Positions 113-6,092 of a stretch of DNA of 6,092 nt are shown here, piece by piece. The notes beneath the pieces are model-generated. The model saw only the letters and a program-made list of their open reading frames with translations, was not told where the DNA came from and ran no database searches. The position numbers and the translations under genes are program-made. Location: positions 1 through 6,092 of the forward strand of contig JADFNR010000159.1 in assembly GCA_022563275.1 (NCBI GenBank). The letters run 5' to 3'. Position 1 is the first letter of the stretch; each line of letters starts with the position of its first letter. Source of the DNA: Chloroflexota bacterium. Lineage in GTDB: Bacteria; Chloroflexota; Dehalococcoidia; UBA3495.

Positions 113-225
113 AAAAATTGCTAATTATATTAAAGTTTAAACCCTTTTTCGGTTACTTTAATTAAAGTTTAAACTTTTCTTAAAATCTAAAAAACGTTAG
201 TAATAAATCACCGAATATTACTCTA
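113..225. promoter_or_regulatory. Divergent archaeal promoter region with a 14-bp direct repeat
   Basis: This AT-rich spacer separates two divergent archaeal genes. ATTAAAGTTTAAAC occurs at 129-142 and again at 161-174, starts 32 bp apart (about three helical turns). The second copy sits in a perfect 14-bp palindrome, AAAGTTTAAACTTT, at 164-177. TATA-like stretches are TAATAAAT at 201-208, about 22 bases before the ATG at 226, and, on the minus strand, TTTAATATAAT around 124-134 near the TTG start. No Shine-Dalgarno is seen for either gene, consistent with leaderless archaeal transcripts. Promoter and operator roles are inferred from position and symmetry. Confidence 0.4.
129..174. repeat. 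Two direct copies of ATTAAAGTTTAAAC
   Basis: Copies lie at 129-142 and 161-174 and match exactly over 14 bases. Each contains GTTTAAAC, an 8-bp palindrome, and the right copy extends symmetrically to 164-177. In AT-rich DNA some repetition is expected by chance, but the length, intergenic position and helical phasing make a protein-binding pair possible. Confidence 0.6.
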
Positions 226-587: not shown

Positions 588-787
588 TTGAGTAAAGAGG
601 ATATTGGAATTACAGTTTCAAAAAAAGAAAATTTTAGTGAATGGTATACGCAAATAGTTCTTAAAGCCAAACTTGCCGATTATGCCCCAGTTAAGGGACT
701 TATTGTTCTCAGACCAGATGGATATTCCATTTGGGAATCATTAAGAAACACATTTGATAAAAAATTTGCAAATAATGGAATTAGAAC
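588..787 (+). pseudogene. proS: Prolyl-tRNA synthetase, N-terminal fragment truncated at a sequence junction
   Basis: The fragment begins LSKEDIGITVSKKENFSEWY (TTG start read as Met) and continues through LADYAPVKGLIVLRPDGYSI into a DKKFANNGIR segment. This is the start of the archaeal/eukaryotic-type class II ProRS, which charges tRNA-Pro with proline in the cytosol. A full enzyme is roughly 470-500 residues; only about 66 are present. Homologues continue GIR-NGFLPVLIP, which forms motif 1, but here GIR is followed by TMA and a stop at 795-797. The match therefore ends at about 787. I chose TTG 588 over the in-frame TTG 576 because homologues start MSKE and a TATA-like element is well placed for 588. 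Loss of nearly all of an essential enzyme at the point where DNA composition changes points to a chimeric join, not to a natural pseudogene. Confidence 0.85.
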
Positions 788-800
788 TATGGCGTAATCA
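783..800. other. Probable chimeric junction between archaeal and bacterial DNA
   Basis: To the left, plus-strand codons match archaeal ProRS up to GIR (ending about 786). To the right, minus-strand codons read as a bacterial nuclease-like protein up to about ...FFEKFLQNDYA. Base composition, codon use and start-site style (leaderless versus Shine-Dalgarno) all change here, and both genes are broken. No repeat, integrase or attachment-site-like sequence accompanies the break. Confidence 0.8.
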
Positions 801-1456
801 TTTTGCAAAAATTTCTCAAAGAATGGCAGTGTGCGCCCGAGGGCATCGAATTCGGCACGAATCGGAAGATCTATGTTGAAATCTAGAGAAAAGCGATCCT
901 TGGCGTTGTCTATTGCCTCGTCGATTCGATTACGAAACCATTCGTTGCTGAATCGCTCCTCGTTGAACCAGAACCAGTGTCGGCCACGATTTTGCTCAGA
1001 GGCCAGTCGGTTACCGATTTGGCTTTCACCCCAATATTCAAATTCGACTGCCATTTTTCTATCTTTAGCAAGAACCTCCCATTTCGCTACGTTCTCATCC
1101 CACCTGTCCTGGAAACTCTTCTGGTTCCCAATCCGGGCGTCCGATCGGTTAATCGGAAGACAGACGAGATATTTGGTAAGCCTTGGATGGGTTTCCAGAG
1201 CTTTCTTGACCGAATTATCTATTTGCGTCCATTGGCTACTGTTTGGTGTCACCAAGAAGAACTTCGCTTGCATCCCCCATTCATCGCCGTTGGGGAGACG
1301 CCAATAGCATTCTAGGCCAGCATCGGGCCGACCCTTGCGAAAAAAGCGTGACTCGCCTGGAACAGGCTCTTGCGCAACCAATTGACAACACAACTCTTCA
1401 AAACTGTTCCTTTGGTCTCCATTCCAATGTCGCAGATAATTCCAGTTGACTGACAT
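788..1456 (-). CDS. PD-(D/E)XK nuclease-like N-terminal domain of a probable large defence protein, truncated
   Basis: The gene starts at ATG 1456, with AGGA (1467-1464) seven bases upstream, and about 223 codons survive. The open frame runs on to 680, but those ~35 residues are antisense to proS and not native. A helix with FEELCCQLV (residues 19-27) precedes GRPDAGLEC (42-50) and GMQAKFF (61-67). E20/E21, D45 and Q63-x-K65 fit a restriction-endonuclease fold with Gln in place of the second acidic residue, as in Mrr/Cap4-type nucleases. Later motifs are YLVCLPINRSDAR (96-108), YWGESQI (141-147), GRHWFWFN (158-165) and DLPIRAEFDALGR (196-208). From memory this arrangement heads very long NTPases related to STAND/Avs anti-phage proteins; the NTPase part is absent. 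GC is lower than in asd and dapB (42%, 48%, 42% and 60% in four sampled lines). The nuclease fold is likely; the defence role is inferred. Confidence 0.7.
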
Positions 1457-1463
1457 TAGATCG

Positions 1464-1467
1464 TCCT
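1464..1467 (-). promoter_or_regulatory. Shine-Dalgarno AGGA of the nuclease-like gene
   Basis: AGGA lies seven bases before ATG 1456 on the minus strand. It supports this start and shows bacterial-style initiation, in contrast to the archaeal genes at the left. Confidence 0.6.
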
Positions 1468-1584
1468 ACCCGGCGAATTCAGCAGTTCCATCGAGCTACC
1501 TAGAGCACTAAAATCATGACGTTGTGGAAACGGTAAAGAAACCAACTCCCCTTCCATGAAACTCAATTGGTTAGGGATTAGGTG

Positions 1585-1613
1585 ATTATAATCTCTTCCT
1601 CGGTTGCAGCCTA
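1585..1613 (-). promoter_or_regulatory. Possible promoter for the nuclease-like gene
   Basis: The palindrome GATTATAATC (1584-1593) gives a perfect TATAAT -10 on the minus strand at 1590-1585. At a 17-base spacing the -35 would fall at 1613-1608, where TAGGCT is a poor match. It lies between the asd terminator and the nuclease start and would leave a leader of about 120 bases. The same palindrome also offers TATAAT on the plus strand, so orientation is unproven. Confidence 0.3.
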
Positions 1614-1638
1614 TCGGCCTCAGCAGAACCTGACGTGG

Positions 1639-1666
1639 AAAAGAAAAACGGCCAGAATTGGCCGTT
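1639..1666 (-). terminator. Rho-independent terminator after asd
   Basis: On the minus strand AACGGCCA, loop ATTC, TGGCCGTT form a perfect 8-bp stem (1666-1659 with 1654-1647), followed by a TTTTTCTTTT-type tract down to about 1639. It starts about 34 bases past the asd stop at 1700. It should end the dapB-asd transcript and separate it from the nuclease-like gene. Confidence 0.92.
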
Positions 1667-1699
1667 CTCCGGAGTACCCCGACCTGCCGCGGCTACGGC

Positions 1700-2743
1700 C
1701 TAGCCGGTCACTCCACTGGTGTGCTTGGGCTTCAACCGGCCCCGGGAGACCAGTTCCTCGGCGATCTGGAGCGAGTTGAGGGCCGCGCCTTTACGCAGGT
1801 TGTCGGAAACGATCCACAACACCAGGCCATTGGGATGGGACAGGTCCTGCCGGATGCGCCCCACGAACACGTCGTCCTCGCCGGCCACGTCCCAGGGCAT
1901 GGGGTATTCGCCCGCCTCGGGGTTGTCCAGCACGGTCACGCCGGGCATGGCCGTCAAAAGTTCTCTAGCTTCATCCACGGGCATCGGCCGGGTGAACTCG
2001 ATGTGCACTGAGGCGGAATGGGAGATGTAAACCGGCACCCGCACGCAGGTGGCGGATATCTGTATCTCCGGGGCGTGCAGGATCTTCTGAGACTCCTGCC
2101 GCATCTTCTGCTCTTCAAAGGTGTAGCCCGTGTCCAGGAAACGGTCGATCTGGGGTATGACGTTGTAGGCGATCTGGCCCTCGCCGGACTTGCTGGTGTT
2201 GGAGTCGGCGTCAAGCAGCCGCTCCGATTGTTCCCGCAGGTCAGCCATGGCCCCGCCGCCCGCGCCGGAGACGGACTGGTAGGTGTCGGCGATTATCCGC
2301 TTGATGGGGTTCGCCCGGTGCAGCGGGTGGGCGGCCATCACCAAGGGAGTGGTGGAGCAGTTGGGGATGGAGATGATTCCTTGGTGCCATTCGACGTCGG
2401 CCCCATTTACCTCGGGCACCACCAGGGGCACCGTGTCTTCCATGCGGAATGCGGAACCGTCGTCGATCACCACCGCGCCGGCGGCCACCGCCGCCGGGCC
2501 GAGCCTCCGGCTGACCTCTGCGCTGGCCGATATGAAAGCCACATCCACGCCGTCGAAGGACTTTTCCGTCGCTTCCTCCACGATCAGGTCTTTCCCGCCC
2601 ACGCTGATGCGCTTGCCGGCCGAGCGGCTGGACGCCAGCAACTTCAGCTTGGGCATGCTGGAATAGCGGGTCTCAACGATGCGGAGAAATTCGGCGCCCA
2701 CCGCCCCGGTGGCGCCTACTACGGCGATGGTTAGGTCCTGCAC
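1700..2743 (-). CDS. asd: Aspartate-semialdehyde dehydrogenase
   Basis: This 347-residue enzyme reduces L-aspartyl-4-phosphate to aspartate semialdehyde with NADPH, the branch point to lysine/diaminopimelate, threonine and methionine. The Rossmann loop GATGAVG is at residues 10-16 and the phosphate-contacting SSRSAGK at 38-44. The catalytic cysteine is C129 in PNCSTT, Q156 lies in TYQSVSGAG, R235 is in CVRVPV and the general base is H242 in SHSAS. The C-terminal VGRIRQD (294-300) and SDNLRKGAALN (313-323) are standard. Length is normal and no key residue is missing. The start is a GTG: an in-frame TAG lies a few codons upstream and no ATG is available before the Rossmann strand. The Shine-Dalgarno is weak (AGAGA-like). 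It follows dapB by 63 bases and is closed by a strong terminator, so dapA is not directly downstream. Confidence 0.97.
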   Translation of the reverse strand: MQDLTIAVVGATGAVGAEFLRIVETRYSSMPKLKLLASSRSAGKRISVGGKDLIVEEATEKSFDGVDVAFISASAEVSRRLGPAAVAAGAVVIDDGSAFRMEDTVPLVVPEVNGADVEWHQGIISIPNCSTTPLVMAAHPLHRANPIKRIIADTYQSVSGAGGGAMADLREQSERLLDADSNTSKSGEGQIAYNVIPQIDRFLDTGYTFEEQKMRQESQKILHAPEIQISATCVRVPVYISHSASVHIEFTRPMPVDEARELLTAMPGVTVLDNPEAGEYPMPWDVAGEDDVFVGRIRQDLSHPNGLVLWIVSDNLRKGAALNSLQIAEELVSRGRLKPKHTSGVTG

Positions 2744-2806
2744 TGGCGGTCTCTGTTTATTCTAAGATTCGTGCCTGATATCAGCCTGGATTCAACCTAA
2801 AACGAC

Positions 2807-3595
2807 CTAGAGGCCCAGCACGTTCTCCAAGCCTATCACAAGGCCCGGATGGCTAACAACGTCGCGGATGCAACGCACCACGCCGGGCATGTAGCAGTCG
2901 CGGCCCAGGGTGTCGTGGCGCAGGGACAGGGTCTGCCCCGCCGCGCCGAAGATCACCTCATGGTGGGCGCTCTTGCCGGGCATGCGGATGCTGTGGACCG
3001 AGATCCCGTTGTGCTCCCCGCCCCGGGTGTTGGCCAGGTTCTCTTTCTCCGGCTGGTTGCGGGTGAACTGCTTGATATCACCCAAGCTGCGCATCAGGGC
3101 CAGCGCGAACCCGGAGGGCGAATCTATCTTGGCTTCGTGGTGGGACTCGATGATGTCCACGTAATCGAAATAGGGCGCCGCCTGTTCGGCCAGCTTCTTG
3201 AGCACGATGGCGCCCAGGGCGAAATTGGGCGCGACGATGATGCCGACCCCATTGTCGTTGGCCATGGCGTCAAGCTGCTTCAGTTGGTCTTCGGAGAACC
3301 CGCTGGCGCCCATGACGATGTTTATCTTCCGGGCGGCGGCTTTGGCGGCGGCCTCCATGGCCACGGCGGCGTTGGTGAAGTCCACCAACACGTCGGGGTG
3401 CGTCTGTTCCAGCAGAGAATCCAGGTCGGTGGAAAGGGGGATCACCGTACTGAACGGGGTGCCCAGTGTGGGGCCCCTATCTCGTCTGCAGGCGCCGCCC
3501 ACCAATTCCAGATCGCTCTCCACTGAGACGGCGGCCAAGGTTTCGGCGCCCATCTTGCCCGTCACGCCGTTGATCACTACTTTTATCGATGCCAT
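2807..3595 (-). CDS. dapB: 4-hydroxy-tetrahydrodipicolinate reductase
   Basis: This 262-residue enzyme reduces 4-hydroxy-tetrahydrodipicolinate with NAD(P)H to tetrahydrodipicolinate for diaminopimelate and lysine. Visible are the nucleotide-binding GVTGKMG (residues 10-16), VDFTNAAVA (71-79), GASGF (96-100, where many homologues have GTTG), APNFALG (122-128), and the catalytic segment SHHEAKIDSPSGFA (151-164) with H152, H153 and K156. Most family members have SGTA where this protein has SGFA, so the usual threonine that contacts substrate is phenylalanine. The C-terminal HHEVIFGAAGQ and LRHD motifs are normal. ATG 3595 was chosen because AGGAG (3605-3601) lies five bases upstream and the family begins just before the first beta strand; an in-frame ATG at 3658 would add 21 unconserved residues. 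It is probably cotranscribed with asd. Confidence 0.96.
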   Translation of the reverse strand: MASIKVVINGVTGKMGAETLAAVSVESDLELVGGACRRDRGPTLGTPFSTVIPLSTDLDSLLEQTHPDVLVDFTNAAVAMEAAAKAAARKINIVMGASGFSEDQLKQLDAMANDNGVGIIVAPNFALGAIVLKKLAEQAAPYFDYVDIIESHHEAKIDSPSGFALALMRSLGDIKQFTRNQPEKENLANTRGGEHNGISVHSIRMPGKSAHHEVIFGAAGQTLSLRHDTLGRDCYMPGVVRCIRDVVSHPGLVIGLENVLGL

Positions 3596-3600
3596 GGCGG

Positions 3601-3605
3601 CTCCT
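3601..3605 (-). promoter_or_regulatory. dapB: Shine-Dalgarno AGGAG that fixes the dapB start
   Basis: AGGAG on the minus strand is separated from ATG 3595 by five bases (CCGCC). It decides against the longer open frame that begins at 3658. Confidence 0.8.
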
Positions 3606-3657
3606 AAGGGGGACTTTGCTGAGTGAGCCAAGGAACTGTCAACATGACCGATGCGCA

Positions 3658-3723
3658 CCCTTCGACGGGCTCAGGGCGAACGGAAACTGGTCTCCCCCGT
3701 TCGTGGTGAGCTTGTCGAACCAC
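3658..3723. repeat. REP-like imperfect palindrome in the dapB leader
   Basis: Two arms of 23 bases (3661-3683 and 3697-3719) are inverted copies with 18 of 23 positions matching, around a 13-base spacer. The left arm reads TTCGAC..GCTCA...CGAACGG, and the right arm reads the same backbone on the other strand. Each arm also has its own small pairings, for example GTTCG/CGAAC and GTGGT/ACCAC in the right arm. The TTCGACAAGCTCA / CGAACGG core is a dispersed intergenic repeat motif I recall from many GC-rich bacteria. It is likely a non-autonomous REP/MITE-type element; no transposase is nearby. Confidence 0.8.
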
Positions 3724-3843
3724 TGCTGCGCTTTAACCATGTTCCCTTAATAATAACCCTGGTTTACGCACCAGAACTGGAGGGTTTGCTCCCAAACCAC
3801 CGAGCCAATCCTCTTCAAATAATAGCATGCAGCCTGAATCTAG

Positions 3844-3894
3844 GAGAAATAAATCAGCCCCGATGATCCATGGAACCATGGAAAATCGGGGCTG
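3844..3894 (-). terminator. Intrinsic terminator of pnp
   Basis: On the minus strand CAGCCCCGAT (3894-3885) pairs perfectly with ATCGGGGCTG (3864-3855), followed by ATTTATTTCT. The 20-base loop contains CCATG/CATGG, which can form an inner 5-bp stem. It starts 27 bases after the pnp stop. The T-tract is interrupted, so it is weaker-looking than the asd terminator. Confidence 0.8.
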
Positions 3895-3921
3895 TTGGTT
3901 GGCTGATTTAACGGCGCCCGG

Positions 3922-6092
3922 CTAGCGGTTTCCGCCTTGGAAGCGTCCGCCGCCTGAGCCTCCGGAACTGCGGGGAGGTCCGCTAGGTCCACGGCCGCCG
4001 CCACCAGAACCACCGCGTCCACCGCCGAACCCACCACGTCCACCCCGGTCGCCGCCCCGGTCACCGCCCCGGTCACGATTGAACCCACCGCTGGGCTCAG
4101 GCCGTGGGGCCGGGGGACTATCGTCGCCAAACAGGGCCTTGCGGGAAAGGTTGACCCGTCCTTGAGAGTCGATCTCGCGAATCATGACCGTGAGTTCCTG
4201 ACCCTCGAACAGTTCCTCTTCCATGTCGCCCAGGTCGCCGTTGCGGATCAGGCCGTCCTTTCCGGGGACCAATTCGACGAAGGCGCCGAAGTTGGTGATG
4301 CGCACCACCTTGCCGGTGAATATGTCGCCGATCTGCAACTCGCGGGTGAGGGCGTCCACCTTGGATTGGGCCAGTTCCAGCATGACGGGATCCACGCCGC
4401 CGATGGTCACTGACCCGTCGTCTTCAACGTTGATGGTGGTGCCGGTCTCCTCGATGATGGCCCGGATCACGCGGCCGCCAGGACCGATGAGCGCACCGAT
4501 CTTCTCGACTTTGATCTTCAGACGGACCATCTTGGGCGCGTGCTCGCTCATCTGAGGACGGGTCTCGGAGATCGCCTCGTTCATCTTGTCCATGATGTGC
4601 ATGCGGCCCTGGCGCGCTTGTTCCAAGGCTTCTTTCAGGATGTCATAGGTCAGATGCGTCGTCTTTACGTCCATCTGCAGGGCGTTCACGCCGGCGGCGG
4701 TGCCCGCCACTTTAAAGTCCATGTCACCCAGGAAATCTTCCAGGCCTTGGATGTCGCTGAGGATGGCGTACTCGCCGTCATCGCCGGTGATCAGGCCCAT
4801 GGCGATTCCGGCCACCGCGGCTTTGATCGGGATGCCGGCGTCCATCAGACTCAAAGAGCTGCCACAGACGCTGCCCATGGACGTGCTGCCGTTGGAACTA
4901 AGGCACTCGGAAACGATGCGGATGGCGTAGGGGAAATCGTCTTCCGATGGCAGGACGGGAAGGATGGCCCGTTCGGCCAAGGCCCCGTGTCCAATCTCAC
5001 GGCGTCCGGGGGACATGGCCCGCCGGGCTTCGCCGGTGGAATACGACGGGAAGTTGTAATGGTGCATGAACCGTTTGGTGTTGTCCGGGCCCACGGAATC
5101 CAGTGTTTGCTTCAAACTCAGGGAGGCCACCGTCACGATGGACAGGACCTGGGTCTCGCCCCTGGTGAATAGTCCCGTGCCGTGGGTGCGGGGCAGGATG
5201 CCGGTGTCGCAGGTGATGGGGCGGACCTGGTCCAACGCCCGACCGTCGGAACGCACGTGCTGTTGCAGGATGCGGCCTCGAACGGCCTCCCGGAACACGG
5301 CTTTGAAACCGTCGCCGATGGCGTTCTTGGAGTAATCGTCTTTCAGTTGTTCGGTAACCAGCGCGGAGATCTCTCGTTCGCCGTCGTCCATCTCGTACAT
5401 GCCGGGGTTGCGGCTGAGGAGGTCTTCCCAACGGGAGCCGACGATCTCTTTGATCTTGGCGATGATGGCGTCGGCGGCGGCCTGGTCGTATTCCACTTCG
5501 CCCTTGGGCTTACCTACCTGGCGGGTCAGGTCTTCAATCATATCGATGGTGGCGGTATTGGCGTCTTGGGCCTTGCCGATAGCTTCCAGAATCACTTCTT
5601 CGGAAACCTCGTTGGCGCCCGCCTCGACCATCAAGATCGCGTCGCGGGAGCTGCTGACCACCATGCTCAACGTGCTCTCTTTGCTCTGATCGTAGGTAGG
5701 GTGGAGGATATATTCACCCTCCAGATAGGCGATGCGGCAGGAGGCGATGGGACCGTTGAAGGGAATCTGGGATATGGAAAGGGCGGCTGAAGCGCCGATC
5801 ATGCCCAGAATCTCGGGAGGATTTTCCAGGTCGGACGAGAGTATGGTAATTGTGATCTGAATGTCGTTGTGCAGACCCTTGGGGAACAGGGGCCGGATGG
5901 AACGGTCGGTGAGCCTGGATGCCAGGGTGCCGTCCTGTCCGGGGCGGCCTTCCCGGCGGAAGAAGCTCCCCGGGATCTTTCCGACAGAATAAAGACGCTC
6001 TTCGTAGTCAACGGTCAGGGGCAGGAAGTCTATGTCCTCCGCCCGGGGCTTGCTGGACATAACTGCCGTCACGAGCACGATGGTCTCGCCGA
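3922..6092 (-). CDS. pnp: Polynucleotide phosphorylase, 5' end cut by window edge
   Basis: This enzyme degrades RNA 3' to 5' by phosphorolysis, releasing nucleoside diphosphates, and can also add tails; it works as a cytosolic trimer, often in the degradosome. The frame runs off the right edge with GETI before the GTG at 6078, so that GTG is not a true start; about 34 residues are missing by comparison with E. coli numbering. Counting from codon 6078: FFRR (39-42) is the RNA-binding loop of the first RNase PH domain, RSDGR (276-280) opens the second, NGSTSM (396-401) contacts phosphate, and D448, D454 and K456 in EDFLGDMDFK are the catalytic residues. A KH domain with IGPGGRVIR (531-539) and an S1 domain (about 583-648) follow. 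The S1 loop GLIRNGDLGD is unusual and about five residues short. The protein ends in a Gly/Arg-rich tail (about 663-718). Confidence 0.97.
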   Translation of the reverse strand, partial: GETIVLVTAVMSSKPRAEDIDFLPLTVDYEERLYSVGKIPGSFFRREGRPGQDGTLASRLTDRSIRPLFPKGLHNDIQITITILSSDLENPPEILGMIGASAALSISQIPFNGPIASCRIAYLEGEYILHPTYDQSKESTLSMVVSSSRDAILMVEAGANEVSEEVILEAIGKAQDANTATIDMIEDLTRQVGKPKGEVEYDQAAADAIIAKIKEIVGSRWEDLLSRNPGMYEMDDGEREISALVTEQLKDDYSKNAIGDGFKAVFREAVRGRILQQHVRSDGRALDQVRPITCDTGILPRTHGTGLFTRGETQVLSIVTVASLSLKQTLDSVGPDNTKRFMHHYNFPSYSTGEARRAMSPGRREIGHGALAERAILPVLPSEDDFPYAIRIVSECLSSNGSTSMGSVCGSSLSLMDAGIPIKAAVAGIAMGLITGDDGEYAILSDIQGLEDFLGDMDFKVAGTAAGVNALQMDVKTTHLTYDILKEALEQARQGRMHIMDKMNEAISETRPQMSEHAPKMVRLKIKVEKIGALIGPGGRVIRAIIEETGTTINVEDDGSVTIGGVDPVMLELAQSKVDALTRELQIGDIFTGKVVRITNFGAFVELVPGKDGLIRNGDLGDMEEELFEGQELTVMIREIDSQGRVNLSRKALFGDDSPPAPRPEPSGGFNRDRGGDRGGDRGGRGGFGGGRGGSGGGGRGPSGPPRSSGGSGGGRFQGGNR
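4043..4077. repeat. 12-bp tandem repeat within pnp encoding Asp-Arg-Gly-Gly units
   Basis: CCCCGGTCRCCG occurs nearly three times in tandem (4043-4054, 4055-4066, 4067-4077, the last one base short). On the minus strand it encodes the repeated DRGG units at residues 669-680 of the PNPase tail. In-frame 12-bp units suggest the tail can grow or shrink by slippage without a frameshift. Confidence 0.75.

Follow-up and report, generated by a model that had tools for sequence, protein, structure and literature searches.

Interspecies chimeric contigs and clones, known from metagenome and single-cell work, are marked by a sudden change of lineage and of composition within genes, at a place where mobile-element genes are not seen. 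The stretch of DNA analysed here (6,092 nucleotides, referred to as the window) resembles them in these respects. It differs from them in that a 22-base filler, and not an overlap, stands at the join. Whole-genome amplification by MDA is also known to produce chimeras. In the account of MDA chimeras by Lasken and Stockwell (2007; PMC1855051), DNA pieces are likewise joined in pairs. As given in the passages of that paper on chimeras, 406 of 475 were inversions inside a single genome, and 76.8% of the joins overall had complementary bases. The rarer joins between sites more than 10 kb apart mostly lacked such bases: 34.8% of the inverted and 27.6% of the direct ones had them. That material came from a single Escherichia coli cell and consisted mostly of within-genome inversions, whereas the window combines two organisms and a filler.

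We found that the flanks of the join in the window belong to two domains of life and that a gene is truncated on each side of it. The discontinuity is real. As detailed below, the window is almost certainly an artefactual chimera of one kind or another (ligation, cloning, whole-genome amplification or misassembly).

An archaeal segment that ends inside proS

Positions 1 to 786 are DNA of an ammonia-oxidising marine archaeon, a Nitrosopumilus-type thaumarchaeon. A scan of species genomes identified contig JADFLN010000020.1 of Thaumarchaeota archaeon isolate B52T3L11 (L021), in which positions 3665 to 4450 match this segment with 98.47% identity over 786 positions, free of gaps. The segment contains a 96-amino-acid gene on the plus strand (226 to 516), which precedes proS and, at a threshold of 0.01, matched nothing in Pfam or NCBIfam; an open reading frame (ORF) of 96 amino acids lies at the same offset in L021 (3890 to 4180). 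In two other Nitrosopumilus-type loci, the spacer upstream of this gene (window 137 to 165) holds about 1.6 to 1.7 kb of extra DNA (L023, 3982 to 5602; L026, 3840 to 5590).

The plus-strand ORF at 576 to 797 contains the N terminus of an archaeal-type proline--tRNA ligase (TIGR00408, proS_fam_I; E value, 1.3e-15). The proS portion itself spans 576 to 786, about 70 of 484 codons, and is cut at the join. Residues 14 to 68 of the fragment account for the similarity, and the score of 57.3 bits compares with a cut-off of 437 bits for the whole protein. As judged from its sequence, the proS of the window is a fragment and would not be a working gene. In L021 the gene is intact (484 amino acids, 4240 to 5694) and, as in the window, starts with TTG.

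The sequence-only reading of this stretch had placed the end of the ProRS match at about 786, and the DNA comparison bears this out, as the matches to L021 through L027 end at 784 to 786. Among these, the main aligned piece of L022 to L026 has an identity of 82.7 to 87.5% and stops at 784 to 786, and the match to L027 stops at 786. More distant loci end elsewhere, at 793 in L028 (74% identity) and at 742 in L029 (68%). In the five loci that we compared directly with the window (L021 and L023 to L026), the sequence continues past the join as AGAAATGG, unlike the window, which reads AGAACTATGGCGTAATC. The reading of the window at the join is AGAACTATGGCG, with an in-frame stop three codons past the last matching arginine codon. 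At the protein level, the usual continuation, of the NGFLP type, is reached by 32 of the 111 ProRS-like proteins retrieved, and none of the 111 holds RTMA, as the window does. One of them, P0103, was considered as an instance of the join, as it ends in TMA, and was rejected, as this ending follows some 30 further ordinary ProRS residues. When window positions 600 to 1000 were compared with 151 Nitrosopumilaceae genomes, 124 matched, and among the matches listed none extended past query position 194, which is window position 793; the 27 genomes with no match are uninformative on the join.

The filler and the truncated avs2 gene

The 22 bases at 787 to 808 fit neither flank. Within them, TGGCGTAATCAT (790 to 801) equals a 12-mer at the start of lacZ-alpha in pUC-type vectors, and the match stops there; this 12-mer is all that resembles vector sequence at the join. 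A 63-base part of the vector stretch used for this comparison was present at 100% identity in two plasmid records (in one of them in two pieces). The number of such matches expected by chance is about 0.0003 per 22 bases and about 0.14 per whole window, for a test chosen post hoc and with no correction for other technical sequences. This rate was taken from 88 loci, which gave 18 matches in 757,354 positions. Shuffling the filler itself produced a lacZ-alpha 12-mer match in 47 of 200,000 shuffles. Since the test was post hoc and the match does not continue, the 12-mer, though suggestive, points only weakly to a cloning artefact and does not prove one.

Searches for the join region gave no second instance. 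The pattern 787 to 809, with up to three mismatches, had no match in 13 genomes (six of SAR202, four of archaea and three that contain Avs2), nor did the backward control. An exact 23-mer over 784 to 806 was absent from viral contigs, and an exact 20-mer was absent from 75 loci. An 8-base palindrome, TTTGCAAA, occurs at 765 to 772 and again at 802 to 809, on either side of the point where the archaeal segment ends. L021 carries TTTGCAAG at the first of these sites.

To the right of the filler lies the 5' part of a gene for Avs2 (AVAST type 2), an anti-phage protein in which the N-terminal part is followed by a STAND ATPase and a C-terminal sensor. The fragment occupies 809 to 1456 on the minus strand (216 codons), within an ORF that spans 680 to 1456. 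This ORF had no Pfam match, and the NCBIfam Avs2 model matched it weakly (16.3 bits). Six PADLOC Avs2 models matched it, and in four of these the match begins within the first five profile positions and covers about 205 to 225 residues; in the best of the six, PDLC02164 (E value, 5.4e-78), the 216 residues correspond to positions 2 to 220 of 1,504. Similarity was thus found for the N-terminal part of Avs2 and not for the remainder of the protein, and the ORF departs from the family at residue 209 to 225 of about 1,500 profile positions. The STAND ATPase and sensor parts are missing from the window because the join cuts the gene.

The position of the cut was given by the relatives. The two closest of 17 Avs2-like proteins, P0001 and P0002 (84% and 75% identity), align with residues 1 to 216 only, that is, to window position 809. 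Four relatives from the class or family, with frames of 1,555, 1,544, 1,564 and 1,022 amino acids, align with window residues up to 209. The alignments of these relatives therefore place the cut in avs2 at 809. Five of the 17 BLASTP alignments extend beyond residue 216, to 219 to 252, and the 42-residue tail that follows the join shares 5-residue words with none of the 17 proteins. For two of the long-frame relatives, a match to almost the entire profile confirmed that they are Avs2. With about 1,550 codons in the relatives, compared to 216 here, the avs2 of the window is a fragment of a gene cut at 809.

These results modify the view that two genes are broken at one point. Both genes are broken; however, their matches end 22 bases apart, at 786 and 809. 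The minus-strand match had been said to disappear within the same 15 or so bases (783 to 800) as the ProRS match. It is indeed lost close by, but its end at 809 falls just outside that interval, and the minus-strand protein, previously described as a nuclease, is more precisely the N terminus of Avs2, as the PADLOC match indicates.

We also considered GAATTCGGCACGA at 848 to 860, which resembles the beginning of an EcoRI adapter widely used for cDNA libraries. It spans four whole codons (R, A, E and F) in frame within Avs2, and the R and F recur in P0001 to P0005 and P0007. For these reasons, the adapter likeness was treated as a coincidence.

Avs2 had no match in viral contigs. In plasmids, 53 records matched, all at less than 60% identity, and were of no help for the junction. 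None of the 151 Nitrosopumilaceae genomes contained a match, in a search with no positive control in that group, which is a weak hint that the avs2 piece did not come from the archaeon. On the bacterial side, Avs2 matches were found in 7 of 393 genomes in the class to which the genome of L001, the SAR202 locus compared below, belongs, and in 6 of 50 genomes in the SAR202 family. In one SAR202-family genome (G560:C33; L081 and L082), the match is in two pieces, one of which has an internal stop codon. None of the genes asd, dapB, dapA and purA was present in nine Avs2 loci (L063 to L067 and L085 to L088), which represent eight places, as L064 lies within L085; five of the nine loci hold only about 3.6 kb.

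The SAR202 backbone and a possible second boundary

From 1636 to the end of the window (6092), the DNA is of a SAR202-type Dehalococcoidia. It matches L001 with 87.6% identity over 1636 to 3789 and 86.3% over 3800 to 6092. Three minus-strand genes were identified in it: asd, coding for aspartate-semialdehyde dehydrogenase (1700 to 2743; NF011456, 1.2e-130, and TIGR01296); dapB, coding for 4-hydroxy-tetrahydrodipicolinate reductase (2807 to 3658; TIGR00036, 2.6e-61); and pnp, coding for polyribonucleotide nucleotidyltransferase (3922 to 6090; NF008805, 1.9e-258), whose 5' end lies outside the window. Asd and DapB are 94% and 93% identical, respectively, to the proteins of L001.

The change in GC content at the join, from 30.2% (1 to 786) to 48.5% (809 to 1456), agrees with the sequence-only reading, which had not separated out a second step near 1636. 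There, GC passes from about 61% (1636 to 1699) to 47.5% in the spacer (1457 to 1635), and asd has 64.5%. The similarity to SAR202 ends at 1635/1636, just past a hairpin and T-run behind asd. When window positions 1300 to 1800 were compared with 250 SAR202-order genomes, 44 matched, all solely from 1636 rightwards, and the spacer had no match in any of the 250. The piece at 809 to 1635 may thus be foreign to the SAR202 backbone, with a possible second boundary at 1635/1636.

One explanation is a chimera of three parts, in which an avs2 fragment from a third organism stands between the archaeal segment and the SAR202 backbone, with a further join near 1636. Besides the one-sided matches of the 44 genomes, gene order and composition speak for it. 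In all 11 of the closest SAR202 loci (L001 to L011), dapA follows asd within 142 to 332 bases, where the window has avs2 (dapA and purA were identified in L001). GC at the third codon position is 51.9% in the avs2 piece and 84.8% in asd, a difference that parallels that in overall GC. Moreover, the class and family gave 14 avs2 loci, and the GC content of avs2 in the window is below that of the ten of them that were measured (55 to 63%). On the other hand, 4 (L013, L014, L015 and L019) of the 17 loci among L001 to L020 that show both genes have 1.6 to 3.1 kb between asd and dapA, so that this site can hold extra DNA. Avs2 also occurs within the SAR202 family and the class, in the genomes counted above, and defence genes are frequently acquired horizontally and differ in composition from their surroundings. 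We regard a third organism as a source that is less likely than not and that would be compatible with our preferred reading; the position of avs2 beside asd could reflect either a natural defence island or a second join to a third foreign piece. Whichever holds at 1636, the verdict on 786/809 is unchanged.

Origin of the join

According to our preferred reading, Nitrosopumilus-type archaeal DNA (1 to 786) would have been fused, inside proS and inside avs2, to bacterial DNA (809 onward), with the 22 bases that match neither flank at the fusion point. The suggestion that an artefact is the simplest explanation is upheld by the assignment of the two sides to different domains and lineages, by the two truncated genes, by the intact counterparts elsewhere, including the proS of a 98.5% identical relative, and by a join that had no second instance in the sets searched. 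An occurrence of the same join in another assembly had been named as evidence against an artefact; we sought one and found no sequence that crosses it among the 124 matching Nitrosopumilaceae genomes, the 17 Avs2-like proteins and the 111 ProRS-like proteins. Consistent with the earlier remark that no mobile-element boundary is visible, none of six ORF products scanned from the window resembled a transposase or integrase. Scans of the window for tRNA, tmRNA and Rfam families were negative.

We infer that the join arose outside the cell, either during laboratory handling of the DNA or during assembly, and the routes differ in how well they account for the filler. A pure misjoin, in which the assembler linked two contigs and no chimeric molecule existed in the tube, is a sub-case that we hold tentatively as possible. 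Chimeric contigs are a recognised error of metagenome assembly, and the isolate labels of L021 and L001 are of one style (B52T3L11 and B71T1B5), so that the two lineages may share habitats. However, an overlap should leave sequence common to both flanks, and none is seen at the join; the 22 bases that match neither flank thus count against a simple overlap misassembly. Joining of molecules from the two organisms during MDA is a further sub-case, and a slightly less likely one. The palindrome on either side of the archaeal end point would suit it, though L021 has a different sequence at the first site. The join is neither an inversion within one genome nor accompanied by complementary bases, both of which are usual in the chimeras of PMC1855051, and the passages on chimeras in that paper do not mention an unmatched filler. 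Complementary bases are a usual and not an obligatory trait, and the missing overlap is no strong objection to MDA because the distant joins described there mostly lack them. Because these bases are native to neither flank, we slightly favour a physical chimera, produced by ligation, cloning or whole-genome amplification, over misassembly through overlap alone.

A recent natural insertion of bacterial DNA into the archaeal proS is highly improbable. Bacterial genes are known to be acquired by marine thaumarchaeota; beyond this, nothing but the sequence itself speaks for such an event. It would have broken a gene that is normally essential and would have carried bacterial core genes with no transposase or integrase among the six ORF products. 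Furthermore, the left side is nearly identical to the DNA of an archaeon whose proS is intact, and the insertion is absent from the 124 matching relatives among the 151. The same join was found in no independent genome of the searched sets, which may lack the record of the window and assemblies from the same sample. In a variant of this explanation, a SAR202 segment with a truncated avs2 was recently captured into the proS of a Nitrosopumilus-type cell, which survived by means of a second intact copy of proS; we consider this scarcely credible. A natural event is less probable than a laboratory or assembly artefact, which is the most likely origin of the archaeal/bacterial join, and a biological explanation is not required.

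The finding is mainly a quality warning about the sequence record. Read literally, the record would place bacterial lysine-pathway and anti-phage genes in an ammonia-oxidising archaeon, or a fragment of an archaeal tRNA ligase gene in SAR202. If the join were a real event, a gene that is normally essential would have received a striking insertion from another domain of life.
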